Notes: generated from the letters alone by a model not told the origin. Counted from the stretch's first letter, positions 7,443-21,466 are shown. The stretch is 40,204 nucleotides of DNA from Magnetococcales bacterium (GCA_015234045.1 JADFWU010000028.1:1-40204), one strand, 5' to 3'. Program-made: numbers and translations.

Positions 7443-8615
7443 ATGTTCAGAATCAATAGACTCTATTCTATATGTGCCGTCTCTTTGGCGGTCTGGTGTT
7501 TATCCGCTGTTCCGGCAACAGCTCAACCAGTGGCAGATCATCAGGTCATTACGGTTGACTCCGGTGCCATTGGTACCACCACCACATTGGGCGGCACTGT
7601 TGTTCCGTTCAAAGAGGTGGCGCTGTCCGCACAGATGCCAGGTCGCATTGAATTTATCGCTGGTGTTGAAGGCGATTGGTTCAAAGCAGGCACACTACTT
7701 GTTGCATTGAACAATGATAATCTACTGGCAAAACAGCGGGCTGCCTATGCTCAGCTGGCTCAGGCGCAGGCTGGGTGGCGTAACGCACGTGTCCAGTACA
7801 CCAAGCAGGTCTACGCTGGTTCTGAATTCGCCAACAATGCCGGTATGGCTCTGCCCAAGGTAATGGATGAGGTGGTTACCCATCCCCTATCCTCTTTCAT
7901 GGGCACTACTGATCCCGAGCTGATCCGCCGCGCGCAGATCTTTGCCCAAGGTACTCGGATCGACCAAGCCCGTTTTCAGCTGATGCAAGCCTATGCTGGC
8001 ATCCAGGAGCTGAACGCCTCTCTGCGTGATACCAAAACCATCGCACCGTTTGACGGCGTGATCGTCAGCAAAGGCATTGAGATTGGCGATACGGTTCAAC
8101 CCGGCATGCCACCCTTTATGCTGCGCTTTGCCGATACCCGCCATCTACAAATCAAACTGGAAGTACCAGCCCGTCTGATGCCCGGTCTACGCAAAGGAAT
8201 GGTGATTCCCTCCCGCCTGGATGTCGGTGGTACTCGGATTGATACCCAAGTTGCCCAAATTTTTCCCATGGCAGATCCTCAGCGCCATACTGTGACGGTT
8301 AAGCTGGACCTACCCCAGGATGCACCTGGTGGCCCTGGTATGTACGCTGAAGTGATGGTGCCGGACATCACCTCCCCTATTGAAGATCTGCCTATCGTGC
8401 CAAAATCAGCGGTATTGTGGCGTGGCAGTCTGCCAGCGGTGTTTGTTGTGGATAGTAAAAGCAATTCCGAACTTCGGATGATCCGTTTGGGTGGTTTTGT
8501 AGACAATGATACCGTGAGCGTCCTCTCTGGCCTTAAAGTCGGTGAGCGCATTATTGTTAGTCCGCCGAGCACAATGGTCTCAGGCTGGAATAAAAAAGAT
8601 GATAATAAACAGTGA
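7443..8615 (+). CDS. RND efflux system periplasmic adaptor subunit (membrane fusion protein)
   Basis: 390 aa with an N-terminal signal peptide (hydrophobic core SICAVSLAVWCLSAVPATA). Seen: a first lipoyl half-motif (VALSAQMPGRIEFI ... VEGDWFKAGTLLVALN), a long helical hairpin of about 100 aa rich in Ala and Gln, the second lipoyl half (TIAPFDGVIVSKGIEIGDTVQPG), a beta-barrel domain (LQIKLEVPARLMPGLRKG) and a membrane-proximal domain ending in GLKVGERIIVSPPS. It should bridge the inner-membrane RND pump and an outer-membrane channel. No TolC-type gene is present nearby. The hairpin includes an unusually long insert around PKVMDEVVTHPLSSFMG. Confidence 0.92.
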   Translation: MFRINRLYSICAVSLAVWCLSAVPATAQPVADHQVITVDSGAIGTTTTLGGTVVPFKEVALSAQMPGRIEFIAGVEGDWFKAGTLLVALNNDNLLAKQRAAYAQLAQAQAGWRNARVQYTKQVYAGSEFANNAGMALPKVMDEVVTHPLSSFMGTTDPELIRRAQIFAQGTRIDQARFQLMQAYAGIQELNASLRDTKTIAPFDGVIVSKGIEIGDTVQPGMPPFMLRFADTRHLQIKLEVPARLMPGLRKGMVIPSRLDVGGTRIDTQVAQIFPMADPQRHTVTVKLDLPQDAPGGPGMYAEVMVPDITSPIEDLPIVPKSAVLWRGSLPAVFVVDSKSNSELRMIRLGGFVDNDTVSVLSGLKVGERIIVSPPSTMVSGWNKKDDNKQ

Positions 8616-8623
8616 GTCACGTG

Positions 8624-8640
8624 GGACGGTTATACCGTCC
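8624..8640 (+). promoter_or_regulatory. Intercistronic hairpin between adaptor and pump genes
   Basis: A perfect 7-bp stem with a 3-base loop (GGACGGT-TAT-ACCGTCC) lies just after the adaptor stop, in a 221-base gap before the pump gene. No T-tract follows. It may modulate read-through or message stability. Confidence 0.4.
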
Positions 8641-8836
8641 TACTCTCTGAACCACTGCATGATGACTGGCTCTTAACAGACCGGTTATCAAATCTACCGG
8701 ATTTGAAAAAATCCACCCTGAGGGAATGAACCGCTCCAGGATCAGGCAGATTACTGTTTATATCTGCTTTCCAAATGGATTACGGTCGCTGAGCGACTTT
8801 CCCAACTTCAAGCTTGTTCAATATTGGATTTGATCG

Positions 8837-11800
8837 ATGCAATCGAACTCTGACGATTATTCCAAAAAGTTCGAAAACGCGCTGGGCGTTGCGGGCTCAA
8901 TGGCGAACAACTTTATCCATTCGCCACTTTCGCCACTGCTGCTTTTTGCCTGCCTTGCCATGGGGATTATCGGCCTCATCGTAACGCCACGGCAGGAAGA
9001 TCCGCAGATCTCTGTGCCCATGGTGGATATTTTTGTCCACTATCCTGGTGCGTCCAGCGAACAGGTCGCCACACTGGTAACTGATCCCCTCGAACGGATC
9101 ATGTCTGAAATCTCCGGTGTCAAACATGTCTACTCCATGTCCGCCCGTGGTCAGTCCATGGTGACGGTTGAGTTTGATGTGGGCGAAAATATGGAGGATT
9201 CTCTGGTCAAACTCTATGACCGAATTCACTCCAATATGGACAAGGTGCCACCCGGTGTCACCAAACCCATGATCAAGCCAAAAGCGGTGGATGATGTACC
9301 TATCGTCACGCTGACCCTTTGGTCTAACGATGTGGATGATTCGGCATTGCGCACCCTCTCACTGGATGTTTTACAACGCCTTAATGAGGTAAAAAACACC
9401 AGTCAGGGATTTATAGTGGGTGGCCGTTCGGAACAGATTCGTGTTGAAGTCTATCCTGAACGACTCTCCGGCTATGGCATCAGCCTGGATCAGATTGCCA
9501 ATACCATCAAAACAGCCAATAGTGAGCAAGGTGTTGGCAATGTGGAGTCCGGCGGTGTCGGTTTCCAGGTCTATACCGGTGCTTTTTTGAAAAACGCACA
9601 GGATGTCAAACGCTTGGTGGTGGCTACCCGTCAAGGCATGCCCATCTATGTGGGTGATGTGTCCAAAGTGTATGCCGGCCCAGAAGATGCGAAACAGATT
9701 GTCACCTACTACACTGGCCCTGCCTATCAAGAGAATACCCCACCCGCAATTGGAGCATCCGCTGTCACTATCGCGGTTGCCAAACAGATTGGCTCTAACG
9801 GTGTTACCGTGGCCAATGAAGTTCTCGCGCGTGTGGAAGAGCTGAAAGGCCATCTGATTCCCAATAACGTCTTTGTTGCTGTGACCAGAAACTACGGTCA
9901 CACAGCAAATGAGAAAGTAAACGATCTACTGTTCAAACTGTTCATCGCCACGGCTGCGGTGACGGTTTTAGTGTACTGGTTCCTTGGCTTACGTCCCGCC
10001 ATTGTGGTGTTGATCGTCATTCCGGTTGTAATCCTGATGACGGTGTTTGCTGCATGGTTTATGAATTACACCATCGACCGTGTAAGTCTGTTCGCGTTGA
10101 TTTTCTCCATTGGCATCCTTGTGGATGATGCCATCGTTGTTGTGGAGAACATCTATCGACGATGGTTGCTTGAAAATAGTTGCTGCCCACTCACCTCCGT
10201 AGATGCAGTACGTGAAGTAGGCAACCCCACGATTCTAGCCACGCTGACGGTTATCGCCGCCTTGTTGCCCATGGGCTTTGTTAGCGGCATGATGGGCCCG
10301 TACATGGAGCCCATTCCTGCTCTGGGTTCGGTGGCAATGATCTTTTCATTGTTTGCCGCCTTTATCTTCACCCCTTGGTTGGCTCAGTTGATCAAGCCAC
10401 CAATGAAGACCCTGCACATTGCTTCTGAAAAAGAGCACAGCTCCGCAGAACGTTTGGAAAAATTCTATCGTTGGATCATTCCAACCTTGGTCTATAGTCG
10501 TTTCAAGGGCTTTATGTTCCTTGGTATCCTGGTGGTTGCATTTTTCCTCTCATTGTCACTTTTCTACACCACAGATGTGACTGTGAAGATTCTGCCCTTG
10601 GACAATAAAGGCGAATTCAACGTTGTGATCAATATGCCTGAAGGCACTGCACTGCCGCGCACGGCTAATCTGACCCAACGATTGACACAAAAATTGCGTC
10701 AGGAAATTCCTGAAATCATCGCTATGCAGACCTATGTCGGTACCGCCTCACCGTACAACTTCAATGGAATGGTACGTCACTACTATCTGCGTGGTCGTTC
10801 TTGGGAAGCCGATATCCAGGTTCAGTTGGTCCACAAATCCAAGCGTGAAAAGACCAGTCATGATATCGCATTGCTGGCGCGTAAACTGCTCACACCGATT
10901 GCAAAAGCTGAGAATGCCGCTATCCAGGTGGTTGAAATGCCACCAGGACCACCGGTTCTGCAATCCGTTGTAGCAGAGATTACCGGGCCGGATGCGCACA
11001 CTCGGCGTAAAATTGCTGAGGACATGACCGCCTTCTTCCGTCAGGCAGAGTCCATTGTGGATGTGGATAACTATATCCAACAGCCCTATGAAATCTGGCG
11101 CTTTGAAGTGGACACAGAAAAGGCTGTTCGTCGCGGTGTTTCTGTGGATGCCATTAACCGTAACCTCGGTATGGCCATGGGTGGCGCTAAACTGGGTGAT
11201 GTAAAGCGCGGGACCATTCTGGAACCGACCTATATCGTTATTCAGGTTCCACTTGAGATCCGTGCAAAAATCAGTAGCCTGGGCGACCTTCCCATCTCCA
11301 CACCGATGGGTACCACGATTCCGTTGGGTGAACTGGGACGATTCGTCAAGGATTATCAGGATGATTTGATCTTCCATAAAGACTTGCGCCCGGTTGAGTA
11401 TGTCACTGGTGAAGTGGAAGGCGATCTGGATGCGCCGATCTACGGCATGATGGAAGTTCAGGAGATTTTGGACAACTACATCACACCGGATGGCGTCTCC
11501 ATGTCCGGTCATTACATGGGACCGCCTGAAAACTATTCCCAATCCGGCTTTGAATGGAGCGGTGAATGGACGGTGACCTATGAGACCTTCAGAGATATGG
11601 GTATCGCCTTTGGCGTGGCTCTGATCTTGATCTACATGCTGGTTGTTTGGGAGTTTGGTAATTTCATTCTACCTGCGATCATCATGGCACCAATTCCTCT
11701 GACTCTGATCGGTATCGTACCGGGTCACTGGCTGTTTGATGCCAAGTTTACCGCGACTTCCATGATTGGATTTATCGCACTGGCTGGTATTATCGTGCGT

Positions 11801-12796
11801 AACTCCATTCTCCTGGTGGACTTTGCCCAACAGGAGATTCTCAAGGGCGTTAACGTTCTTGAAGCGGTAATCCTATCATGCAAGGCTAGAACCCGGCCTA
11901 TTATCATCACAGCTTTTGCCTTGGTCGCAGGTTCCAGTGTGATCATCACTGACTTTATCTTCCAAGGCATGGCTATCTCACTATTGGCTGGTGTATTGGT
12001 TTCTACCCTATTGACTTTGCTGGTTATTCCATTGGGTTGCATCAGTGCCCAACACGCTTTCCACAGCAATGATCCCGATGGTATACCACCACTGCCAAGC
12101 CCTCAGCAGATGGCTGCAAAACACCGGGAGGATACCTGCGCGCCACAGACTGGCAATGCTGGCTCTGCCCGTGATTTCATTGAGAAGTACAACTCACTCC
12201 CTGAAAAGAAACAGTCAGCCGTCAGCACAAAGGCAGAAAGCAGTAGCGCGCCTTTGGACGAAAATGTTGTGGATGCCGTTATCGTTGAAAATCCACCTGA
12301 AAAAGAAACAACGGACGGCACTGTCGGTACATTGGTAAAACAATCAGCTCCAAAAAAGCAGGTTGCTCCCAAAAAAGCGGTTAAAAAAACGCCCGCAAAA
12401 ACAGCAACCAAAGCGAAAGCCTCTCCTGCTAAAAAACCAGTTACTGAGGCCACCGCCAAGAAAAGCGCAACAAAGAAAACAACTGCAACAGTTGCAACTG
12501 ATGAAAAGGCAACAGGCACAACGGCAAAGACTGAGAAGCCCGCCGCAACAAAAAAGCCAACACCCCGTAAAACCACACGGCGTAAGGCTGCCCCCAAAAC
12601 AGCGGCATCCAAGAGTGCTGATAAAAGCACAAGCACACAAAAAACGGCGACAAAGAAAGCTGCGCCTAAAACTGTGGCAAAAAAGCGCACAACCAAGGCA
12701 CAGACAGCCAAAAATACCGATGCAACAGGCACCAAACGGCGTGGTATTCGGTTGAGAAAACCCGGGAGTGAAACAGAAGACAAATCTACTTCTTAA
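8837..12796 (+). CDS. RND superfamily efflux pump with a lysine-rich, histone H1-like C-terminal tail
   Basis: Inner-membrane proton-driven pump. Residues about 1-1075 form a full RND protein: TM1 (SPLLLFACLAMGIIGLIV), a periplasmic loop, TM2-6 with the proton-relay motif FSIGILVDDAIVVVENIY, a second periplasmic loop, and TM8-12 including IIMAPIPLTLIGIVPG and FIALAGIIVRNSILLVDFA. Related pumps end soon after TM12 at about 1050 aa. Here about 245 further residues follow. Residues about 1172-1312 are almost only Lys, Ala, Thr and Pro, with repeated PKKA, AKKS and TKKA units, ending RRGIRLRKPGS. By RND topology this tail is cytoplasmic and could bind DNA, RNA or acidic lipid head-groups. Start ATG 8837 has no clear Shine-Dalgarno. 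Substrate unknown. Confidence 0.93.
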   Translation: MQSNSDDYSKKFENALGVAGSMANNFIHSPLSPLLLFACLAMGIIGLIVTPRQEDPQISVPMVDIFVHYPGASSEQVATLVTDPLERIMSEISGVKHVYSMSARGQSMVTVEFDVGENMEDSLVKLYDRIHSNMDKVPPGVTKPMIKPKAVDDVPIVTLTLWSNDVDDSALRTLSLDVLQRLNEVKNTSQGFIVGGRSEQIRVEVYPERLSGYGISLDQIANTIKTANSEQGVGNVESGGVGFQVYTGAFLKNAQDVKRLVVATRQGMPIYVGDVSKVYAGPEDAKQIVTYYTGPAYQENTPPAIGASAVTIAVAKQIGSNGVTVANEVLARVEELKGHLIPNNVFVAVTRNYGHTANEKVNDLLFKLFIATAAVTVLVYWFLGLRPAIVVLIVIPVVILMTVFAAWFMNYTIDRVSLFALIFSIGILVDDAIVVVENIYRRWLLENSCCPLTSVDAVREVGNPTILATLTVIAALLPMGFVSGMMGPYMEPIPALGSVAMIFSLFAAFIFTPWLAQLIKPPMKTLHIASEKEHSSAERLEKFYRWIIPTLVYSRFKGFMFLGILVVAFFLSLSLFYTTDVTVKILPLDNKGEFNVVINMPEGTALPRTANLTQRLTQKLRQEIPEIIAMQTYVGTASPYNFNGMVRHYYLRGRSWEADIQVQLVHKSKREKTSHDIALLARKLLTPIAKAENAAIQVVEMPPGPPVLQSVVAEITGPDAHTRRKIAEDMTAFFRQAESIVDVDNYIQQPYEIWRFEVDTEKAVRRGVSVDAINRNLGMAMGGAKLGDVKRGTILEPTYIVIQVPLEIRAKISSLGDLPISTPMGTTIPLGELGRFVKDYQDDLIFHKDLRPVEYVTGEVEGDLDAPIYGMMEVQEILDNYITPDGVSMSGHYMGPPENYSQSGFEWSGEWTVTYETFRDMGIAFGVALILIYMLVVWEFGNFILPAIIMAPIPLTLIGIVPGHWLFDAKFTATSMIGFIALAGIIVRNSILLVDFAQQEILKGVNVLEAVILSCKARTRPIIITAFALVAGSSVIITDFIFQGMAISLLAGVLVSTLLTLLVIPLGCISAQHAFHSNDPDGIPPLPSPQQMAAKHREDTCAPQTGNAGSARDFIEKYNSLPEKKQSAVSTKAESSSAPLDENVVDAVIVENPPEKETTDGTVGTLVKQSAPKKQVAPKKAVKKTPAKTATKAKASPAKKPVTEATAKKSATKKTTATVATDEKATGTTAKTEKPAATKKPTPRKTTRRKAAPKTAASKSADKSTSTQKTATKKAAPKTVAKKRTTKAQTAKNTDATGTKRRGIRLRKPGSETEDKSTS

Positions 12797-12869: not shown

Positions 12870-14483
12870 ATGAGCCGTTTAACTTTGAAACGATCTTTAA
12901 TGACCACGCTTGCTGCGGCGACACTAATTGCTGTGTCAACCGGTCAAGCGTCTGATATGGCCCAAAGCTCTCCGACATGGCAAGACCAGGGGTTCAATGT
13001 TGCCCCTGGTGAGCCTTGGTATGATCAAAATTTCGGTGGCGTTCAATCCGCCAGTCCTGATCGTTATGGAACGCCACAGCCTCCACCACCAATACAGCGT
13101 CATGTTGCACCTAATCCTGGCTTTGTTCCGCCAGGAATGCCTACAGCACCTGGTGAGTCGGCTGACACGCCGGAAAATCCACCATTGGCTGCAATTCCCA
13201 TGGAGCCAACACCTTTCGGTTATCCACCAGCACCGCCTCCAGGATTTCAAGATGCGCCTTCCCATGCAATGGGAAACCCATATCCTCATGCCATGCGACT
13301 ACCTGGTACAAACCATGGTATGACGCAGCAAACCAACCAATGGGACATACCCAATCAAGTACAATATGGTCAAACGGGTCAAAACGGTGTGATACCGGGC
13401 AACCAGATTGATTGGTCACAATCCCCATTGCCCGGTCAAAATGGTATGCCCGACCGTATGAGATCAACACCGGGATATCACGGAACACCTACTCAATCCT
13501 ACGGATTGAGCAATAGGACAGCACCTTCCCATGGCATGACTTACGGTAACTCAGACAATTTCTATCGGCCCCGTCCAAATCAGCAGATGGATTATGGTCA
13601 ATACGGTCGTATGCCTGACCGTATGAATAGAAACCATGCTCTGCCCGGCACTACTCCTTATGGCCGTTTGCCTGATCCTGCCACCAGATACGATGCGCCT
13701 GAACCAATGAATTATGGTCAACCTGGACGTTCTGGGATGCACTATGGCCAGCCTGACATGTCCAATCACGACATGGGTCTGAGTCATTCTGGACACAACT
13801 CAGCGACAATGGACTACGGCAGGTATAATGCCAACCCAAACGCAAACTATGGGATGCCCTCCAATTCCTATCAAAGGCCCGGCAATCAAGGAATGTATGG
13901 CAGACAGGCTGCCAACCCCGGCATGAATTACGGAAGGCCTGACAACAATCACCACATGAATTTTGACATGCCCAGCACACCGCCTGACATGTCTTACACA
14001 ATGCCCGATCCGAATCAAGCCATGAACTACGGCATGCCTTTGCCCAATCGAGGTATGCATTTTGATGTGCCCAATCCCAATCGAGGTATGAACTTTGACG
14101 TACCTGATCCCAGTCGGAACATGCGCTTCGATGTACCTAGTCCCAATCAAGCCATGAACTATGCGCCCCACTTTGATCATCCCGCAGGGTTACTACCAAA
14201 CCTGGGAACAAATGGTGGACCTGCCCCCTACATGTCACAGGGTAATAGTGGTCATCAATCTGGATTCCAGCAGCCATCACAAGGGGATTCCGACTTTTCT
14301 CATTCGGGTTCCAGGCCTTTGATCATGACACCGCCCCCTTTTGGGCATGCCCCAGATAGTGGGGCTGAAATGATAACGCCACCACCGATCTTTGTAACGC
14401 CGAGCATGCCTGACATGCCCGAACAAGCCTCTGAGGCTGATTCAAATAGTGGTGAGCTGGAAACACAAGCAGTATCTGAGTAG
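12870..14483 (+). CDS. Exported Met/Asn/Pro/Tyr/Gly-rich repeat protein
   Basis: Not a family I recognise. 537 aa with a signal peptide (RSLMTTLAAATLIAVSTGQAS). The start is placed at ATG 12870, 6 bases after an AAGGAG box; ATG 12867 is adjacent. The mature protein is low-complexity: a Pro-rich first part, a Met/Tyr/Gly/Asn-rich middle, then an acidic tail with TPPP motifs. From 13923 it carries seven exact-length tandem units of 11 residues, consensus M-x-[FY]-x-x-P-x-x-x-x-x, with an eighth starting at 14154. The composition suggests a disordered or self-assembling extracytoplasmic protein. Regular Met and His could also bind copper. It is the first of six clustered genes for exported proteins that precede the ParA gene. 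Confidence 0.8.
   Translation: MSRLTLKRSLMTTLAAATLIAVSTGQASDMAQSSPTWQDQGFNVAPGEPWYDQNFGGVQSASPDRYGTPQPPPPIQRHVAPNPGFVPPGMPTAPGESADTPENPPLAAIPMEPTPFGYPPAPPPGFQDAPSHAMGNPYPHAMRLPGTNHGMTQQTNQWDIPNQVQYGQTGQNGVIPGNQIDWSQSPLPGQNGMPDRMRSTPGYHGTPTQSYGLSNRTAPSHGMTYGNSDNFYRPRPNQQMDYGQYGRMPDRMNRNHALPGTTPYGRLPDPATRYDAPEPMNYGQPGRSGMHYGQPDMSNHDMGLSHSGHNSATMDYGRYNANPNANYGMPSNSYQRPGNQGMYGRQAANPGMNYGRPDNNHHMNFDMPSTPPDMSYTMPDPNQAMNYGMPLPNRGMHFDVPNPNRGMNFDVPDPSRNMRFDVPSPNQAMNYAPHFDHPAGLLPNLGTNGGPAPYMSQGNSGHQSGFQQPSQGDSDFSHSGSRPLIMTPPPFGHAPDSGAEMITPPPIFVTPSMPDMPEQASEADSNSGELETQAVSE
13923..14153 (+). repeat. Seven in-frame 33-bp tandem repeats
   Basis: ATG codons recur exactly every 33 bases from 13923 to the start of an eighth copy at 14154. 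Each unit codes for 11 residues, such as MNYGMPLPNRG, MHFDVPNPNRG, MNFDVPDPSRN and MRFDVPSPNQA. The units have diverged, so the array is not very recent. The 33-bp period preserves the frame on gain or loss of copies. Confidence 0.9.
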
Positions 14484-14597
14484 AACAGTTGAACGGGTTA
14501 TGATGAGCAAAACAATGCGCTTTTGATCGTGTTACCTGTTATGAATTATACTGCACTCTCTTCTTCTTTCACCTACAGCGACTAACGGTTGATTGCG

Positions 14598-15638
14598 ATG
14601 CGTACCAATCATAGCTTTCTCCCAACGTTCATTTCTGTGCAGCGATATGCCCGGATGGGTATACCTGCCGTTGGACGATTGGTTTTTGCCGAAATGATCG
14701 CTGTTTGCGTGGGCTTTGCTTTGTTCACGAGCGGATCAGTTAACGCAGAACAGAACTGGCAATCGATCAATAATTCCGAAACCTGGAATGCCAAGCAAAG
14801 CAGCCGCACCCCTTCGACAACACCAGAGTGGAAAACGTCCACGACGAAATCCAATCATCGCCAGGACCACTGGAGTTGGTACGACAACCAATACATTCAA
14901 CATCCCGCTGGTTCTCAAGAGAGTTATCAGTCCCCTTTTCAAACACCGCCGAAACGCCCCTGGGGACATGCGCCTCAAACTGAGAAGAATCAGCAATTCT
15001 ATAGCAATACACAACCTTCACCCAATACACAGTCCTTTCAGCCCTATTCGGCACCAGGGTATACAGCACCAGAATATCAAGGCGGCCACCACGCTACGCC
15101 TTTACCCACTTATCCGCAGCAACCAACCAGTCAAATGGGACAGGTCCCAGGATATGGTGGCATCCCTCACCAGACAGCCATAGAACGGGAATCAGCATAC
15201 GGTGCAGCACCTGCCTACGGGGCACCATCTGCCTATGGTGGTGCACCTATTTACGGAGCACCACCTGCTTATGGTGCTGTACCTGCCTACGGTGCACCAC
15301 CTGCTTATGGCGCACCACCTGTTTATGGCACTACGCTCCAGTATCCCCATTCACAAGACTATGGTAGATATCCCTCTTATGTGCCAAGAGCAGAGTATCG
15401 TGATCCACTCTACGCGCGTGGCTATGATGGCTATGCTGGCCCACTTCGGCCATCATATGAGGCGTATTATCATCGCCGGCCAGACTACTATCGTGACTAT
15501 GCTCCTCGGGATGAGTACGATCATCGTTCCAGCCGTGACCGCAGCCCCTGGAGCATGCCGATCCTTGAAGACAGTGGTTTCTTTGACTTATGGCGTGGAC
15601 GTTCACGGACACCCTGGTCTCAACGTAATCCTTGGTGA
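14598..15638 (+). CDS. Exported Tyr/Pro/Ala/Gly-rich protein with AYGAPP repeats
   Basis: No family recognised. About 346 aa with a signal peptide (GRLVFAEMIAVCVGFALFTSGSVNA, likely cut before EQNW). ATG 14598 is preferred; a TTG three codons earlier is in frame. The order is a Gln/Ser/Asn-rich part, a Pro/Gln part, eight tandem six-residue units (AYGAPP type), and a Tyr/Arg/Asp-rich part. It ends in SRTPWSQRNPW. Tyr-Gly-Pro repeats resemble those of sulfur globule envelope and cell-wall-like structural proteins. The ending is shared in style with the 213-aa protein at 16753-17394 (DTPWRANPWGW). The role is probably structural, outside the cytoplasm; this is inference from composition and context. 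Confidence 0.78.
   Translation: MRTNHSFLPTFISVQRYARMGIPAVGRLVFAEMIAVCVGFALFTSGSVNAEQNWQSINNSETWNAKQSSRTPSTTPEWKTSTTKSNHRQDHWSWYDNQYIQHPAGSQESYQSPFQTPPKRPWGHAPQTEKNQQFYSNTQPSPNTQSFQPYSAPGYTAPEYQGGHHATPLPTYPQQPTSQMGQVPGYGGIPHQTAIERESAYGAAPAYGAPSAYGGAPIYGAPPAYGAVPAYGAPPAYGAPPVYGTTLQYPHSQDYGRYPSYVPRAEYRDPLYARGYDGYAGPLRPSYEAYYHRRPDYYRDYAPRDEYDHRSSRDRSPWSMPILEDSGFFDLWRGRSRTPWSQRNPW
15195..15338 (+). repeat. Eight 18-bp in-frame repeats (AYGAPP units)
   Basis: Eight consecutive six-residue units with Tyr-Gly at positions 2-3: AYGAAP, AYGAPS, AYGGAP, IYGAPP, AYGAVP, AYGAPP, AYGAPP and VYGTTL. The codons vary between units (tac/tat, gca/gct), so the repeat has been kept at protein level. Confidence 0.88.
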
Positions 15639-15661
15639 CTTGTGTGAGCGTTGATTCTTAC

Positions 15662-16408
15662 ATGCATAATACTCAAATAGTCTCACACTATCTGACAGGC
15701 TCAACACGTGATATGGGCTGGATCAATAGACCTGTTGCGGTTTTTGAAAACGTATTTTTCGGTGGTGCCAAACCACTTATTCAATTTTTTTTTTCGTCCA
15801 GAATTCTTTTGGTCGGGCTGACATTCTTATGTTTTTTCATGCTTGGAATCAATACAGTATACAGTAAAAATTTCGAGAAATCGTTTTCAGCAGATGTCGT
15901 TCGCAACCATCCGCATCATCCAGAACGGAACTCTTCTGGCCGTATGTTTGTCTCTCCTTCTAAGGTACGTACTGAAGGAATATTGGATGGACACGCCGTG
16001 GTCATCCTTTTCCACACCGATCAAAATAAGGCTTGGATGCTGTTTCCAAAACAGAAGCGATTCACACCGTATCCTGGCAAAGATTTCTCTCGGCCGCCAT
16101 TACCTTATGAGAAAGAGAGCCCGTGTTACACCAATCCAGCCTATCAATGCCATAAACGGGGCAGGATACGTATTGAAGGGCGCTTGGTTGAACATTGGGA
16201 GGTGTTTGTCCTGCATGAAGGTAGAAGAATGCCTCATATGCAGCTTTGGGTTGATCCGAAATTGAAAATCGCCATTCGAGAACATTATGCAGATGGTATG
16301 ACTGTTGAATTGAAAAACTTGCACGAAGGGGCTCAACCCCCCAATATGTTTACTATTCCGGTTGATTATAAGGAACTCCCGTCAGAAAAAGAGGCGGCAA
16401 AGGAATAG
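15662..16408 (+). CDS. Membrane-anchored or exported protein with a LolA/DUF4412-like beta domain
   Basis: A hydrophobic segment (RILLVGLTFLCFFMLGIN) precedes a domain of about 165 aa: FSADVV, then SSGRMFVSPSKVRTEG, AVVILFHTDQNKAWMLFPKQKRFTPY, IRIEGRLVEHWEVFV, MQLWVDPKLKIAIREHYADG and PPNMFTIPVDYKEL. This strand pattern, with K-x-R-x-E followed by a W-x-L-x-P motif, is typical of LolA/LolB-like and DUF4412 periplasmic proteins that hold lipids or hydrophobic chains. The frame runs back to 15632, overlapping the previous gene; ATG 15662 is a compromise and ATG 15713 is possible. It is the only folded-looking protein among the low-complexity exported ones, so it may chaperone them; this is inference. 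Confidence 0.7.
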   Translation: MHNTQIVSHYLTGSTRDMGWINRPVAVFENVFFGGAKPLIQFFFSSRILLVGLTFLCFFMLGINTVYSKNFEKSFSADVVRNHPHHPERNSSGRMFVSPSKVRTEGILDGHAVVILFHTDQNKAWMLFPKQKRFTPYPGKDFSRPPLPYEKESPCYTNPAYQCHKRGRIRIEGRLVEHWEVFVLHEGRRMPHMQLWVDPKLKIAIREHYADGMTVELKNLHEGAQPPNMFTIPVDYKELPSEKEAAKE

Positions 16409-16752
16409 AAGCCGTAATATCCATTCTTGTGGATGATCGGAGATAGGTTAGGCCCAAGATATTAAAGTGAAGGACAAGCAATTTTCAGTTGTGTTTTAGG
16501 AAATTGGCGCGTATATTAGAGTTTCATGATATTAGACAATGCTGATATAGCAGATATTTTCTACTATAAATTTTTGGCAACTTATTGATTTTATGAATTT
16601 AACTAGGTGCCATTATGCATCTAATGCTAATCAAAAAGTGTTCTTTCCTTCTGGATTCGAGGCTTTCCAAGTCGTTCCGAAGGGTGATTCCAGCTCGGTT
16701 AGAAAATGTTTAGACAGCTGGTTGTGATTGGCTCGGTGGAGAGGGTATCGGG
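16409..16752. other. Gap with probable upstream region of the 213-aa gene
   Basis: 344 bases with no credible ORF. The left two-thirds are AT-rich. A possible -35 TTGGCA lies at 16574-16579, but the matching -10 (AATTTA at 16597-16602) is weak. The right end has a good Shine-Dalgarno (GGAGAGG) before ATG 16753. No hairpin followed by a T-run was seen, so termination after the preceding gene is not evident. Confidence 0.4.
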
Positions 16753-17394
16753 ATGATACGGCTTTCACCCCATTTGACTATTGTGGTGGTTGGGCTTCTG
16801 GTAAATTTAGCGATACCACTGTCGTATTCGACAGCTCAAGCAGGGGATGCTGTTGCTGGTAATGCGCTGTCAGGTCAGGAAGCGGCTGACTGGGGACGCC
16901 GGTTTGGGCAGTTTATGCACTCTTTTCAACAACAGATGCAGAGTGCTCAGAAAGATGCCCAGCAAAGTGTCCAACAATCCGGCGCTATTGTACCCAATGT
17001 AGCACCAGCGCTACCTCCTCAAATCACAGCTGTTCCCGAAGTACGTACCAAGCCGGCAACACCGCAAAAGCGGTCATATCCGGTTGATTCGGGTTTTGAT
17101 CCCTGGGGTGCCCGCAACTGGGGCGCACCGTATCTGGGCGTTGATCCTGGTCTATCTCAACTTCAGGATCCGTACTTATGGAGTGCAGATGGCTACCCAC
17201 GGGTTTATTGGCCTGAACACTCCAATGGTTTGTATGATCCTGGTTACCCGTATAATTGGCTCGACCATTCGGGTTACTATACTGGACATGACCCGTTTTA
17301 TGACCGAGGCTACGCACCTTGGGGCAATAATTCTTACGATGCGTATGATGGGTATTCCGACACACCATGGAGAGCAAATCCATGGGGTTGGTGA
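16753..17394 (+). CDS. Exported Tyr/Trp/Asp/Pro-rich protein ending in PWGW
   Basis: 213 aa, with a signal peptide (LTIVVVGLLVNLAIPLSYSTAQA, likely cut before GDAV). A helical Gln/Ser-rich stretch (RFGQFMHSFQQQMQSAQKD) follows, then a Pro/Val linker, then about 110 residues rich in Trp, Tyr, Asp, Pro and Gly (for example DPWGARNWGAPYLGVDPG). It ends DTPWRANPWGW. A GGAGAGG box supports the ATG. A hairpin with a T-run (17417-17452) follows. It has no recognised family. The aromatic-rich composition and position place it with the neighbouring Gly/Asn/Trp proteins as a likely extracytoplasmic structural protein. Confidence 0.8.
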   Translation: MIRLSPHLTIVVVGLLVNLAIPLSYSTAQAGDAVAGNALSGQEAADWGRRFGQFMHSFQQQMQSAQKDAQQSVQQSGAIVPNVAPALPPQITAVPEVRTKPATPQKRSYPVDSGFDPWGARNWGAPYLGVDPGLSQLQDPYLWSADGYPRVYWPEHSNGLYDPGYPYNWLDHSGYYTGHDPFYDRGYAPWGNNSYDAYDGYSDTPWRANPWGW

Positions 17395-17416
17395 CCGGTA
17401 ATAATTTGGTCGGAAC

Positions 17417-17452
17417 CAGGCTCAGTTAAGAAGAGAGCCTGATTAACTTTTT
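17417..17452 (+). terminator. Rho-independent terminator or attenuator
   Basis: A perfect 7-bp stem (CAGGCTC...GAGCCTG, loop 17424-17434) is followed by ATTAACTTTTT. It lies 22 bases after the 213-aa gene and only about 28 bases before the next start codon. Partial termination with read-through to the next gene seems likely. Confidence 0.6.
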
Positions 17453-17480
17453 CCACACCTGTGCTTATTAGGAGGGATTC

Positions 17481-17840
17481 ATGAAAAAGGGTACACGTAT
17501 TCTCATGTTTGCCGCACTTCTTGGTATCGGCGCTATGACTAGCTCAGGCGATGTAGATGCCTGGGGTTGGGGCCCCGGATGGGGTAACAACAATGGCTGG
17601 GGCAACAATGGTTGGAACAACGGTTGGGACAACAACGGTTGGGGCAATGGCTGGGGCAACGGTAACGGCTGGGGCAATGCTGGTTTGAATTTCAACATTG
17701 GCGCCGGTGGCTGGGGCAATGGCAATGGCAACGGTTGGGGAAACAACGGTTGGAATAACGGCTGGAACAATAACAACAACGGCTGGAACAATGGCTTCTT
17801 TCCTGGAAATGGATGGGGTCCCGGTTGGTGGGGTTGGTAG
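17481..17840 (+). CDS. Exported Gly/Asn/Trp-rich protein, sulfur globule protein-like
   Basis: 119 aa. The signal peptide MKKGTRILMFAALLGIGAMTSS is followed by a probable cut before WGWG. The mature chain is nearly all Gly, Asn and Trp in GW-N-N units, with one short more normal stretch (LNFNIGAGG), and ends GWGPGWWGW. A perfect AGGAGG box lies 8 bases before the ATG. Purple sulfur bacteria coat periplasmic sulfur globules with small exported Gly/Tyr/Asn-rich proteins of this size and layout (SgpA, SgpB, SgpC). The resemblance here is in composition and architecture, not in alignable sequence. It is paralogous to the next gene. Other glycine-rich structural proteins remain possible. Confidence 0.82.
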   Translation: MKKGTRILMFAALLGIGAMTSSGDVDAWGWGPGWGNNNGWGNNGWNNGWDNNGWGNGWGNGNGWGNAGLNFNIGAGGWGNGNGNGWGNNGWNNGWNNNNNGWNNGFFPGNGWGPGWWGW

Positions 17841-17866
17841 GTCGTTTAACTTTTAGTTTTACCTTT

Positions 17867-17889
17867 GGACGGCTCATTTGGGGCCTTCC
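17867..17889 (+). terminator. Imperfect hairpin with short T-run between the paralogues
   Basis: Arms GGACGGCTC and GGGCCTTCC pair at seven of nine positions and are followed by GTTTTCC, just before the Shine-Dalgarno of the next gene. A weak attenuator is possible. Confidence 0.3.
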
Positions 17890-17916
17890 GTTTTCCACTT
17901 GATACGGAGCAACATA

Positions 17917-18315
17917 ATGAAAAAGACTATCAGTGCTTTGGCGTTTGCCGCCCTGTTGGGTAGTGCTACATTTATGACCAGCACAGGCGCTGACGCCTGG
18001 GGTTGGGGTGGTCCTGGTTGGGGCAACAACAATGGCTGGAACAACAATAACGGCAATTGGGGCAACAACGGCTGGGGCAACGGCAACGGCAATGGCTACG
18101 GCGGCGGCAATGCTGGCATGAACTTTGGCTTCGGCGGTGGTGCCGGTGGCAATGCTTATGGTAATGGCAACAATTCCTGGAACGGTAACAACGGCTGGAA
18201 CGGCAACAATGGCTGGAACAACGGCTACGGCGGATACCCCGGATACGGCTATCCCGGATACGGTGCTGGCCCTTGGGGCGCTCCTCCTGCTCCTAAAGCA
18301 GAAGCTGAGAAGTAA
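17917..18315 (+). CDS. Exported Gly/Asn/Trp/Tyr-rich protein, sulfur globule protein-like
   Basis: 132 aa from ATG 17917. That start follows a CGGAG box and gives a signal peptide matching the preceding paralogue (MKKTISALAFAALLGSATF, likely cut after GADA); the frame is open back to 17878. The mature part begins WGWGGPGWGNNNGW, the same as its neighbour, then a Gly/Asn run, then a GGYPGYGYPGYG segment and a charged end PAPKAEAEK. The Tyr-Pro-Gly segment is strikingly like that of sulfur globule proteins of purple sulfur bacteria. The two paralogues lie 76 bases apart and have probably arisen by duplication. Likely periplasmic or surface structural protein. Confidence 0.84.
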   Translation: MKKTISALAFAALLGSATFMTSTGADAWGWGGPGWGNNNGWNNNNGNWGNNGWGNGNGNGYGGGNAGMNFGFGGGAGGNAYGNGNNSWNGNNGWNGNNGWNNGYGGYPGYGYPGYGAGPWGAPPAPKAEAEK

Positions 18316-18318
18316 TCA

Positions 18319-18353
18319 CGCTGAGTCAATCAGCGATCCGATCTTTTGATCGG
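18319..18353 (+). terminator. Two tandem hairpins after the sgp-like gene
   Basis: CGCTGA-GTCAA-TCAGCG (18319-18335) and CCGATC-TTTT-GATCGG (18338-18353) follow the stop directly. No T-run follows either, but a full terminator lies just beyond. They may stabilise the 3' end of an abundant message. Confidence 0.45.
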
Positions 18354-18366
18354 TGTGCGTCATGCA

Positions 18367-18618
18367 TTAAGGAGGGCGTTTGTCGTCCTCCTTTTTGCTT
18401 GGCCAATAATCCACTGGCTTGCGCCTTTTATTCCCTGATTCTGGAAATATTTTTCCTGTCTTATCGTTGAACAGCACCTTATTTTTTATCAATTCGCGCT
18501 GCTTCTGTGAAAAACCTGTCACAGTTGCTGTGGAAATTTCGTTCAACTGGTGATACCATTCATGTCCTGGCTGGGAATTTTGCTCTATAAATTCCTGAAG
18601 GCTTTTGTCGTCTGGCAT
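18367..18618 (-). CDS. Small hydrophilic protein, function unknown
   Basis: 83 aa, charged, no signal peptide or membrane segment, and no family recognised. The N-terminal part (MPDDKSLQEFIEQNSQPGHEWYHQL) looks helical; the C-terminal part is Lys/Pro-rich and ends KKEDDKRPP. Composition is that of a real soluble protein. Against it, no clear Shine-Dalgarno precedes the ATG, and its last codons overlap a terminator. Its start is only 23 bases from the divergent ParA start, so the ParA promoter would have to lie inside this gene. If real, it may belong to the ParA locus, since ParA-type systems often include a small partner protein. Confidence 0.45.
   Translation of the reverse strand: MPDDKSLQEFIEQNSQPGHEWYHQLNEISTATVTGFSQKQRELIKNKVLFNDKTGKIFPESGNKRRKPVDYWPSKKEDDKRPP
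18369..18396 (+). terminator. Rho-independent terminator closing the exported-protein gene cluster
   Basis: The 10-bp stem AAGGAGGGCG...CGTCCTCCTT has one G-T pair and a 5-base loop, and runs into TTTTT. It overlaps the last codons of the small minus-strand gene. It separates the exported-protein genes from the ParA gene. Confidence 0.7.
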
Positions 18619-18641
18619 GGCGTCTACTTCGAAAGGAAGCC

Positions 18642-19328
18642 ATGATAACGGTTGTTGCGAATCTAAAAGGTGGATGTGGCAAGAGTACGGTAACCTTTAA
18701 TTTGGCCGTATGGCTTTCCATGACCGGGCAGTCTGTCATCTCATTTGACCTGGATCCCCAGGCCACATTGAGTGAGGTGGTGGACGTGCGTCGAGAAATG
18801 GGTGTTGAGCCTGCCCTCACCGTTTACCGGCCGGATGTTGATCCTGAGCCGTTGATCAAGCAAAAAGATGGTGGCATGGTCTTGATGGACATCAGCGCGA
18901 CAAACCGCTGGACCATGCGGTATGCCATTCGGAACGCTGCTCGCATCATCGTTCCTGTTCCACCCAGTCAGGCAGATGTCTGGTCTACCCAGCGTTTTCT
19001 GGATATCGTTGCGGAAACGTTGGCTGGCAAGAAGCAACCTGAAATTTACATGTTCATCAACCGCGCTGATACCCATCCCGGTTTGAAAGAATCGGATGAA
19101 ACACAGGAGGCGCTTGAGTCTCTGTATGGTGTCACGGTATTGAAAGAACGTCTTGGCCAACGAACAGCCTTTCGTCGCTCTTTCAGTGAAGGGCGGGCCG
19201 TTTTCGAGCTTTCCCGCCGTAGCAAAGCCGCTGAGGAGTTTTTGCAATTGACTGACAGGCTCTTTCCAGAGCTTTCCAAATCTTTTGCTATTCCAAGCGC
19301 CAAAAAAATCGGAAAGGCTGATCAATAA
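18642..19328 (+). CDS. ParA/MinD-like P-loop ATPase
   Basis: 228 aa cytoplasmic ATPase of the Walker A cytoskeletal family, which moves or positions chromosomes, plasmids and large protein bodies. Seen: deviant Walker A KGGCGKST with signature lysine K9 and catalytic lysine K14, Walker A' FDLDPQATLS, Walker B GMVLMDIS, and PVPPSQADVWSTQRFLDIV as in ParA-like proteins. The short, orphan-like form lacks an N-terminal helix-turn-helix, as in McdA-type positioning proteins. An AAGGAAG box supports ATG 18642. Its stop overlaps the start of the next gene (TAATG), so the two proteins are made together. No ParB or parS-like site was seen, which argues against plasmid partition. Confidence 0.88.
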   Translation: MITVVANLKGGCGKSTVTFNLAVWLSMTGQSVISFDLDPQATLSEVVDVRREMGVEPALTVYRPDVDPEPLIKQKDGGMVLMDISATNRWTMRYAIRNAARIIVPVPPSQADVWSTQRFLDIVAETLAGKKQPEIYMFINRADTHPGLKESDETQEALESLYGVTVLKERLGQRTAFRRSFSEGRAVFELSRRSKAAEEFLQLTDRLFPELSKSFAIPSAKKIGKADQ

Positions 19329-20020
19329 TGTCTGATAAGCCAACAGATAATAAAAAACGGCAAGAGGATGCAAAAAAAACTGCTGGCGGTCCTCAGTTTC
19401 GTTCGCAATCCCGTCCTGATTCTCCGATCATTCCCATAGGTAACCACTCTGATTGTGGAAACTGTTCGGCAATGGTGTTGGATCAGTTTGCCAAAAGCTT
19501 TGATAAAAGTGCCAAACGGTGGGAATTGATTGTTTATCCTTCTCTGCTGGCGTTTATTTTTCTTGCGCTGTACGGTTTTTTCCTTATTTACAGCCTCACC
19601 CAAGATATTCGCACCATGGCAACCTCCATTGATCCAAAAATGGGGATGAATATGGGAGGGATGTCTACCAATATCAAGATGTTGTCTGACAATGTCCAGC
19701 TGATATCAACACACTTGGAATATATCAGCGACAATATGGAAACCATGTCCATGGACATGCAGTCCATTGCCCAACATATCAACACCATGACTGGTCGTGT
19801 GGATACCATGGCTTCGGTCGTGACCACCATGAACGGTCATTTAAGTGAAATGAATACCTCTGTTGCTGTGGTCTCAAAACAGATGGAGGTTCTGCCTTCC
19901 ATGGCTGATAACCTCAGCACCATGACCAAGACCATGCATGTAATGACCGGATCGGTCTCTCGCATGGGCTATGATGTGGGCCGACCTATGAGCTTTATCA
20001 ATCGATTCATGCCCTGGTAG
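19328..20020 (+). CDS. Single-pass membrane protein with Met-rich coiled coil, ParA partner
   Basis: 230 aa, with no family assigned. Residues 1-65 are basic and likely cytoplasmic, with a CGNC pair (43-46). Residues 68-90 (LIVYPSLLAFIFLALYGFF...) form one membrane helix. Residues about 112-215 have heptad-like spacing of Met, Ile, Val and Leu (for example TMSMDMQSIAQHINTMTGRV) and should form a long coiled coil outside. The protein ends MSFINRFMPW. Topology follows the positive-inside rule. It is translationally coupled to the ParA-like gene and followed by a terminator. It is well suited to link the cytoplasmic ATPase to something beyond the membrane; the target is inferred, not seen. Confidence 0.8.
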   Translation: MSDKPTDNKKRQEDAKKTAGGPQFRSQSRPDSPIIPIGNHSDCGNCSAMVLDQFAKSFDKSAKRWELIVYPSLLAFIFLALYGFFLIYSLTQDIRTMATSIDPKMGMNMGGMSTNIKMLSDNVQLISTHLEYISDNMETMSMDMQSIAQHINTMTGRVDTMASVVTTMNGHLSEMNTSVAVVSKQMEVLPSMADNLSTMTKTMHVMTGSVSRMGYDVGRPMSFINRFMPW

Positions 20021-20153: not shown

Positions 20154-21335
20154 CTAAGACCCTGCAAAACGTTTCCGCTGCGCCAATACCCGCTTTAGAT
20201 AGTTCTGCGTCTCTTCGGGCATTTTCGCTAAGATGCGGGCGTGGACCTGTGCGGGTGTCATTTCATTAATGCGGTTGAATGCTGTTTTTTGATTTCGATC
20301 AAAAGCGCGTAGCAGAGTGCCAATGCCGCCATTATATGACGCGATCACACAGTACTCTCTCGATACCGAATTGGTGACCCGCTTTAGATAGTTATCCTTG
20401 AGAATTTTGATATATGCGGTGCCCATCTCGATATTTTTATCTGGGTCAAACAGGTAGTCCTTATCCGGCATGCCTTTTTTATCATAGAGGAACTGATAGG
20501 CATCCTGACCGGCGGTTTTCGGCACGATCTGCATCAAACCAAAGGCGGGTATCCAACTGACAGCAAATCGGTTGAAATTGCTTTCTGTCTTGATGATGGC
20601 GTAGATCAATGACCGGCTAATACCATATTTCTCGCCATATTTGGAGACCAGATCCTTATAGCGTGCAGCCCGGTGGTCAGCATGCCCCTCTACAAGATTA
20701 AAGGTGACATACTGAACCTTCTGATACCCGCTTTCTCCTTTGATCTTCTTGGTTGAGATCCCCGCATTGATCAAGTGGTCGGCAAAAGCCTCGGCTTGAG
20801 CCATGGTGTTTATGGACTTGCCATGGTGGTCCAACACCTGATTGAGCAAATAGGGCGTTCCGCTCAGGTCTACCGGATCATCGGAGAAAAAATCCACCTT
20901 GCGCGGATCATCTGGCGTAAGCACCGCCACGATGATCATCTCGCGTAAATGTGCCACCGGCTCCTCAGTATTGACGGTTTCAACACGAACAATACCATTA
21001 TCAAAATCCACCATGGCACGGCTGCGGAATTTATCGGTGTATTTGATTGTGACCTTTGGAGACGGTTTTTCAGCCTCACTGCGTCCCCAAATCTTGGCGA
21101 TACTGTCTTTGGTCTTCTGGTAGGCTACTTTGAATTTATTCCAGTCACGGCGGATCTTATCGGGATCATTCAGATAGGCGCGCGCCTTCTGCTCTGCATA
21201 TTGAATCGCCACCTGTTGCACATCACCACCGCTATTAATCAATCGACTGGCAAGGTCAGTGACATCAGACTGTTCACACCCGGTGGCAGGCAGTAAAGCG
21301 GCCATAAGAATCAGCGTTCGAGAAGCACGGCGCAT
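20154..21335 (-). CDS. mltC: Membrane-bound lytic murein transglycosylase C
   Basis: A lipoprotein that cuts peptidoglycan between MurNAc and GlcNAc. The lipobox LLPATGC follows a 19-residue signal peptide when ATG 21335 is used; the upstream ATG at 21380 would give an overlong n-region. The N-terminal MltC-specific domain (about 20-200) is followed by an SLT domain. The SLT domain has the catalytic glutamate in IYAIIKTESNFNRFAVS, then AFGLMQIVPKTAGQDAY, NIEMGTAYI and VIASYNGGIGTLLRAF. About 393 aa, near the usual length. It transcribes toward the ParA operon and away from the ATPase/nuclease pair. Confidence 0.93.
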   Translation of the reverse strand: MRRASRTLILMAALLPATGCEQSDVTDLASRLINSGGDVQQVAIQYAEQKARAYLNDPDKIRRDWNKFKVAYQKTKDSIAKIWGRSEAEKPSPKVTIKYTDKFRSRAMVDFDNGIVRVETVNTEEPVAHLREMIIVAVLTPDDPRKVDFFSDDPVDLSGTPYLLNQVLDHHGKSINTMAQAEAFADHLINAGISTKKIKGESGYQKVQYVTFNLVEGHADHRAARYKDLVSKYGEKYGISRSLIYAIIKTESNFNRFAVSWIPAFGLMQIVPKTAGQDAYQFLYDKKGMPDKDYLFDPDKNIEMGTAYIKILKDNYLKRVTNSVSREYCVIASYNGGIGTLLRAFDRNQKTAFNRINEMTPAQVHARILAKMPEETQNYLKRVLAQRKRFAGS

Positions 21336-21466
21336 GGATTTCACAAAACTATCCCAATGACTAGATGGTCTCAGAGGCATGACCTCAAAGAAAAATGGAG
21401 ATGCTCATCACTTCAGACTACAATAGACAGAGTAAACGTGACAGCAGTTTTTGAGGCGATCAAAAA

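Follow-up and report, generated by a model that had tools for sequence, protein, structure and literature searches.

What does a ParA-type ATPase do beside a series of genes for exported proteins, and through which partner does it act? The question is raised by a contig of the 3.6-Mb draft genome of a Magnetococcales bacterium, of which the whole stretch of 40,204 nucleotides was analysed (the window). A sequence-only reading had proposed that the ATPase works through a membrane protein with an external coiled coil on an extracytoplasmic body, perhaps sulfur globules. We found that the six consecutive exported-protein genes on which it relied, five of them of low complexity, are all present on the plus strand, with signal peptides called by a crude rule and no dedicated predictor. 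They comprise an ORF for a Pro/Gly/Asn-rich protein (12870-14483), with same-place counterparts in other families; a low-complexity ORF (14589-15638), whose same-place counterparts carry W.WYGD and RPWGE.P motifs in families f2, f4, f5, f6, f7 and f12; the non-low-complexity protein C3 (15632-16408); a Gly/Asn/Trp-rich protein with RFGQFM..F and YDPWG motifs (16753-17394; phmmer matches to L064 at 1e-10 and L078 at 7e-4, with the motif at the same place in several families); and two Gly/Asn/Trp-rich proteins resembling sulfur globule proteins (SGP-like 1, 17481-17840, with same-place homologues at E values down to 1e-20; SGP-like 2, 17911-18315).

The small divergent gene is likewise present, as an 83-aa ORF without family match on the minus strand (18367-18618), between the second SGP-like gene and parA. 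In a complete relative (G010), which we take to be Magnetococcus marinus MC-1, an ORF at the same place (L062:9283) has no detectable similarity to it. The ParA-type ATPase (18642-19328, plus strand) is translationally coupled, as had been claimed, to the single-pass membrane coiled-coil protein, here TMCC (19328-20020, plus strand), their stop and start codons overlapping as TAATG. An MltC-type lytic transglycosylase gene adjoins TMCC in the window (20154-21380, minus strand); no homologue is grouped there in the other families compared. Furthermore, the unit is larger than originally described, since two upstream genes (7443-12796) also belong to it: a periplasmic adaptor (MFP) of HlyD/CusB type (7443-8615, plus strand; Pfam HlyD_D23 and HlyD_3 over cut-off), which lies 5' of the RND gene in related loci, and an RND permease of the AcrB family (8837-12796, plus strand; ACR_tran at 499.5 bits over residues 23-1066 of 1319, a PF00873 member), the translation of which reads into a Lys/Ala/Pro/Thr-rich, cytoplasmic C-terminal tail of about 250 residues. 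No outer-membrane factor gene was seen beside the MFP and RND genes in the window.

Identification of the ATPase as ParA-like was borne out by a CbiA domain scoring 57.7 bits against a cut-off of 25.4, which places it in the ParA/MinD group, and by a deviant Walker A motif, LKGGCGKST, which conforms to xKGGxxK[T/S] and in which K9, G10, G11, G13, K14 and S15 are invariant among 33 orthologues. Its closest curated family is the partition ATPase ParA_partition (NCBIfam NF041546), at 135 bits and thus under the cut-off of 180, and the nearest PDB entries by sequence are ParF and ParA (4dzz, 5u1g). Profiles and alignment mark a distinct subfamily with NRADTHP and RRSFSEG signatures, which also stands apart from other ParAs in a FastTree tree that has long branches and from which the start-finding rule dropped some rows, so that it was used only for the separateness of the subfamily. 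No conserved membrane-targeting end was seen in the orthologue alignment, and no ParB or centromere-binding gene adjoins parA in the window, where its neighbours are the SGP-like genes and TMCC.

TMCC has one hydrophobic segment, at residues 73-91. Lys and Arg are more frequent on its N-terminal side (mean 3.9 vs 1.9 across 34 orthologues), the protein displays a strong 3.5-residue periodicity, and helices are predicted at 46-101 and 105-217; together these support the proposed orientation, in which the N-terminus would lie inside and the Met-rich coiled coil in the periplasm. The cytoplasmic side carries a conserved basic segment, FDKSA[RK]RWE. The outer tip, with the pattern (R/K)PM..(N).FMPW, is almost identical in Magnetococcales and gammaproteobacteria (RPMSFINRFMPW in the window, RPMNFMNSFMPW in L242), and most TMCC proteins terminate in FMPW. 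Pfam matches to IFT57, BLOC1, COG and others fell below cut-off and were rejected as coiled-coil noise. One genome (G015) has, besides a normal pair, an extra full-length TMCC paralogue ending KFMNTFMPMR (L120:9115-9795).

Upon comparing the locus across Magnetococcales, we found TMCC and ParA in almost every genome of good quality, at 50-71% identity, and adjacent in every genome having both (gaps of -11 to 520 bases); because of this conservation and constant adjacency, the pair is not a chance arrangement. The conserved set consists of MFP, the RND pump, Pro/Gly-rich exported proteins, C3, SGP-like proteins, ParA and TMCC. In families f1, f2, f5, f6, f7, f11 and f12, the genes run from RND through one or two Pro/Gly-rich exported proteins, C3, the QFM/YDPWG protein and two or three SGP-like proteins to ParA and TMCC, the f2 contig beginning 3' of the RND gene. 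Elsewhere the arrangement varies: in f8 the SGP genes accompany the pair, and a distance of some 8-15 kb separates them from RND and C3; f9 has the two halves as divergent neighbours, and f13 has them intact at separate loci; f10 (8% contamination) shows just the pair. The SGP genes of f4 lead directly into TMCC (L075:8005-9699, genome G003), and ParA was not found in either genome of the family even at E 1e-8 (G003, 96% complete; G014, 69% complete); the TMCC there retains its whole conserved cytoplasmic segment, and both ParA and the RND motif described below are lost. Matches to C3 occur in 45/48 genomes of the order, the weaker ones being to a second, paralogous family. We also considered a dynamin-like GTPase as a member of the locus in Magnetococcales; 45/48 genomes encode a protein that shares about 50% identity with its counterpart at the G231 locus, and the candidate was rejected, as the gene sits elsewhere (L290-L297).

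The distribution of TMCC in a sample of the phylum suggested a system confined to Magnetococcales, an interpretation that we rejected after searching gammaproteobacteria with ParA. Some 40 gammaproteobacterial families have the gene set, as do a few further genomes, probably alphaproteobacterial, where a membrane TPR protein and the dynamin-like GTPase join it; from their sequences, G231, G493 and G290 appear to be Alphaproteobacteria, and G317 appears to belong to the Gammaproteobacteria. In a sample of roughly 350 genomes from elsewhere in the phylum, members of the ParA subfamily were distinct in G231 and G290 (228 and 257 bits vs a background of about 100). At the G231 locus, C3 and ParA are accompanied by two exported proteins, an SGP scoring above the Pfam cut-off, a membrane TPR protein, the GTPase and a short TMCC; the G290 locus combines C3 and ParA with an RND, exported proteins, an SGP-like protein, TPR and GTPase. 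The TMCC profile also led to G493, whose locus contains TMCC and TPR together with an RND and with exported and SGP-like proteins, with no ParA in 20 kb. TMCC matches were confined to G231 and G493 among the 148 genomes of their order, and in each of the two the gene set is present.

Within 312 evenly drawn gammaproteobacterial genomes, ParA was detected at E < 1e-35 in 56. For the 34 loci with at least 8.9 kb upstream, an RND gene was present in 27 (within 10.5 kb of ParA), C3 in 14 and a recognisable SGP-like gene in 15, and for the 41 loci with at least 4.5 kb downstream, TMCC was present in 23 and a GTPase, of the dynamin type, in 22. None of the partners was found at 3 of 26 well-covered ParA loci, which counts against the association. 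Three loci (L181, L234, L235) have ParA and the RND motif with TMCC absent nearby. Between ParA and TMCC, gammaproteobacteria encode membrane-anchored TPR proteins that share an ELGN[ILV]Y motif (L236:10478-11422, L237:10640-11998); none was noted in the Magnetococcales cluster.

Next, we examined the link with sulfur globules. The SGP-like proteins of the window stay under the Pfam SGP (PF17228) gathering score of 26.7. SGP-like 2 scores 13.1 bits, and it matches, at a phmmer E value of 8e-22, an MC-1 protein that scores 64.9 bits; other same-place homologues over the cut-off reach 57 bits in G550 and 43 in G231. Proteins over the cut-off occur at the locus in MC-1, G018, G023, G231, G550, L244 and L256, and thus in all three groups, G550 and two more being gammaproteobacterial. 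Additionally, dsrA was present in 35/40 ParA-positive vs 12/40 ParA-negative gammaproteobacteria (Fisher p = 2.4e-7, a value that is too small because the lineages are not independent). These two observations support the sulfur-globule link, and a third line of support is the setting of SgpD described below. Pointing the other way, 5/40 ParA-positive gammaproteobacteria lack dsrA, and SGP-like genes are recognisable at just 15/34 loci.

SgpD of Allochromatium vinosum is the most abundant globule protein, sits on the periplasmic globules and is encoded beside an exporter of hydrophobic or amphiphilic compounds, but deletion of sgpD leaves globule number and size unchanged (PMC10386293). Magnetic cocci are reported to possess reverse dsrAB and, in many cases, sulfur globules (PMC6783814, PMC5447723), but TEM revealed no globules in one Magnetococcales strain that has the pathway (PMC6783814). 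A magnetosome link was dropped, and is not needed because the gene set occurs in many gammaproteobacteria with dsrA. Overall, comparison of gene content across genomes shows the set to be one inherited, sulfur-linked unit that goes with the reverse Dsr pathway. The grouping of the pair with exported proteins of sulfur-globule type, as first noticed in the window, is supported. The condition named at the outset as refuting it, homologues of the pair occurring for the most part away from such genes, did not hold in Magnetococcales, where SGP-like genes adjoin the pair in most genomes of eight families, and the grouping recurs as a conserved neighbourhood in other classes.

The non-low-complexity protein of the set, C3, has matches within the order, and its structure model (pLDDT over 90 in the core) retrieved LolA, RseB, LprG and EPDR1 with Foldseek at E 1e-5 to 1e-8 and TM about 0.35-0.6; by sequence, DUF4412 stayed below cut-off. 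The model thus predicts with high confidence a half-barrel fold as in LolA, RseB and ependymin-related proteins. Several proteins of this kind bind lipids or other hydrophobic ligands, and that C3 carries sulfur or lipid is a guess.

The feature that follows the presence of ParA is the cytoplasmic end of the RND pump. Beyond their final membrane segment, the RNDs of the locus extend into a tail of variable sequence, in many cases with abundant Lys, Ala, Pro and Thr, with RRGIRLK at 0-21 residues from the C-terminus; the C-terminus of AcrB is cytoplasmic. In the window the motif reads RRGIRLR (codons at 12737-12757, plus strand). It is kept in 53/55 distinct RNDs with an intact end (56 rows, L069 and L303 being the same gene), of which 47 are strict, five are off in one or two positions (L249, L269, L275, L278, L282) and one has the motif just past a broken frame (L240). 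The two RNDs without it are L075, from G003, a genome without ParA, where the end has degenerated to RRRAVRVRK, and L145, from G493, without ParA in the 20-kb locus; both retain TMCC. Both tail and motif are missing from nine paralogous RNDs of the order, and RRGIRLK was found in no other ORF among 15,754 scanned. Against the pairing, the RNDs that lack the motif number only two, and G043 has the motif and ParA was not found, in a genome that is 77% complete. ParB binds ParA through a disordered terminus that contains aliphatic and positive residues and suffices as a peptide (PMC12462528), and partners of ParA/MinD ATPases generally have charged disordered ends (PMC10241942). RRGIRLK fits these descriptions, and by analogy we infer that it may bind ParA.

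Since the two motif-less RNDs come from a genome and a locus, respectively, without ParA yet with TMCC, and ParA occurs elsewhere without TMCC, the pump tail, not TMCC, is the probable partner, and the pattern of gene presence makes it fairly probable that ParA works on this tail. Whether the purpose of the system is to place globules appears evenly balanced. We give a similarly even standing to the reading in which the window encodes that part of a conserved envelope apparatus which coats and positions periplasmic sulfur globules, with ParA acting via the RND tail. The full proposal, which we put forward tentatively and hold at somewhat less than even, is that nucleoid-bound ParA, via the RRGIRLK-tagged RND tail, spaces, anchors and shares out periplasmic globules in Magnetococcia, Gammaproteobacteria and a few other proteobacteria. 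A nucleoid-bound ParA dimer would grip the charged and aliphatic RRGIRLK on the flexible cytoplasmic tail of the pump, which in turn would hold the growing globule by means of TMCC, the coat proteins and its own periplasmic parts. ATP-dependent binding and release would then spread or anchor pump and globule over the nucleoid and share both between daughters. TMCC may dock on the periplasmic side of the pump or stiffen it, with its conserved end as a binding tip, and the pump and C3 may, as a guess, move hydrophobic sulfur species or lipid.

Several other explanations have to be weighed against this proposal. ParA might cluster or distribute the RND pump alone, which would export hydrophobic sulfur species or lipid while globule placement stays uncontrolled. 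The constancy of the pump as neighbour (27/34) and bearer of the motif, the frequent lack of SGP-like genes at gammaproteobacterial loci, and a second TMCC-like family that lies directly 3' of another RND gene without ParA or SGP at nine Magnetococcales loci are all compatible with this view, but SGP and C3 genes within the set in three groups and the strong dsrA association make it rather unlikely. The proteins of that second family are encoded by two tandem genes that overlap the end of the other RND and have RPMKLFNS-type C-terminal ends (L109-L119; for example L109:9086-10352 and L112:7278-8584). From this family and the separations of TMCC from ParA, it follows that TMCC-type proteins go with RND pumps and ParA with the tagged pump. 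The same separations bear on the wiring first proposed for the locus, in which TMCC is the partner of ParA and carries the pull of the ATPase through the membrane to the globule. The overlapping genes in the window, the adjacency across the order and the conservation of both the basic cytoplasmic segment and the outer tip would all suit it; however, the f4 TMCC (G003, G014) keeps FDKSA[RK]RWE though ParA is gone, ParA occurs without TMCC in L181, L234 and L235, and the TMCC of L144 is almost without a cytoplasmic part, with only about 10 residues ahead of the membrane segment. Because of f4 and the three loci without TMCC, we downgraded TMCC as the sole partner and regard this wiring as improbable; the sulfur-globule half of the earlier idea is supported, its ParA-TMCC half less so.

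Two further explanations concern the ATPase itself. As parA is embedded in the gene set of an envelope machine, and its positioning role is one that we infer, it might be a non-spatial regulator of the pump or of coat-protein assembly; yet its sequence relatives (NF041546, ParF, ParA) are small partition ATPases and its alignment has no conserved membrane-targeting end, and we consider this quite improbable. That relationship would equally suit an ordinary chromosome or plasmid partition pair lying here by accident, but the score is under the family cut-off and the ATPase is conserved with the pump across classes; we rejected this reading, which has a negligible probability, because no ParB-like neighbour is present.

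The globule-positioning proposal resembles McdAB and ParABS in principle, and the locus is a member of neither, because their defining partners are missing. As in McdAB, a ParA-type ATPase would serve a metabolic body, and McdB adaptors need a C-terminal Trp for cargo binding (PMC11321042), the residue in which most TMCC proteins end. McdB and carboxysomes are cytoplasmic, whereas here the cargo side would be across the inner membrane, with the pump tail as the best candidate for an adaptor; no soluble McdB or carboxysome genes were found among the neighbours examined, where the candidate partners are membrane proteins. A small ParA and a partner motif that combines aliphatic with positive residues in a disordered terminus (PMC12462528) are shared with ParABS/ParFG, but there is no ParB or ParG gene, and the candidate motif is the C-terminus of a membrane transporter. 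The locus shares PF17228 members with SgpA-D of A. vinosum, where sgpD adjoins an amphiphile exporter gene (PMC10386293), but ParA, TMCC and C3 are not reported alongside in the literature surveyed. Its AcrB and HlyD families are those of HAE-type RND-MFP pumps, from which it differs in the long charged RND tail with RRGIRLK and in having no outer-membrane factor gene beside it in the window. None of the seven H. neapolitanus ATPases is reported at such a locus. A literature search on ParA or RND with sulfur globules and on Magnetococcus with SGP, which took in few subscription papers, returned nothing relevant beyond SgpD, and the system appears undescribed there.

The joint conservation of motor, coat proteins and tagged pump suggests that cells may position globules that lie external to the inner membrane through a cytoplasmic hold on a membrane protein. 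The seven-residue peptide RRGIRLK makes the idea directly testable in vitro. If it is true, sulfur globules would gain a dedicated machine for their assembly and inheritance, and, as the ParA/MinD cargos described in the literature surveyed are DNA, cytoplasmic bodies and motility, chemotaxis and division machines, a ParA-type ATPase tied to a periplasmic storage body would widen the range of these motors.
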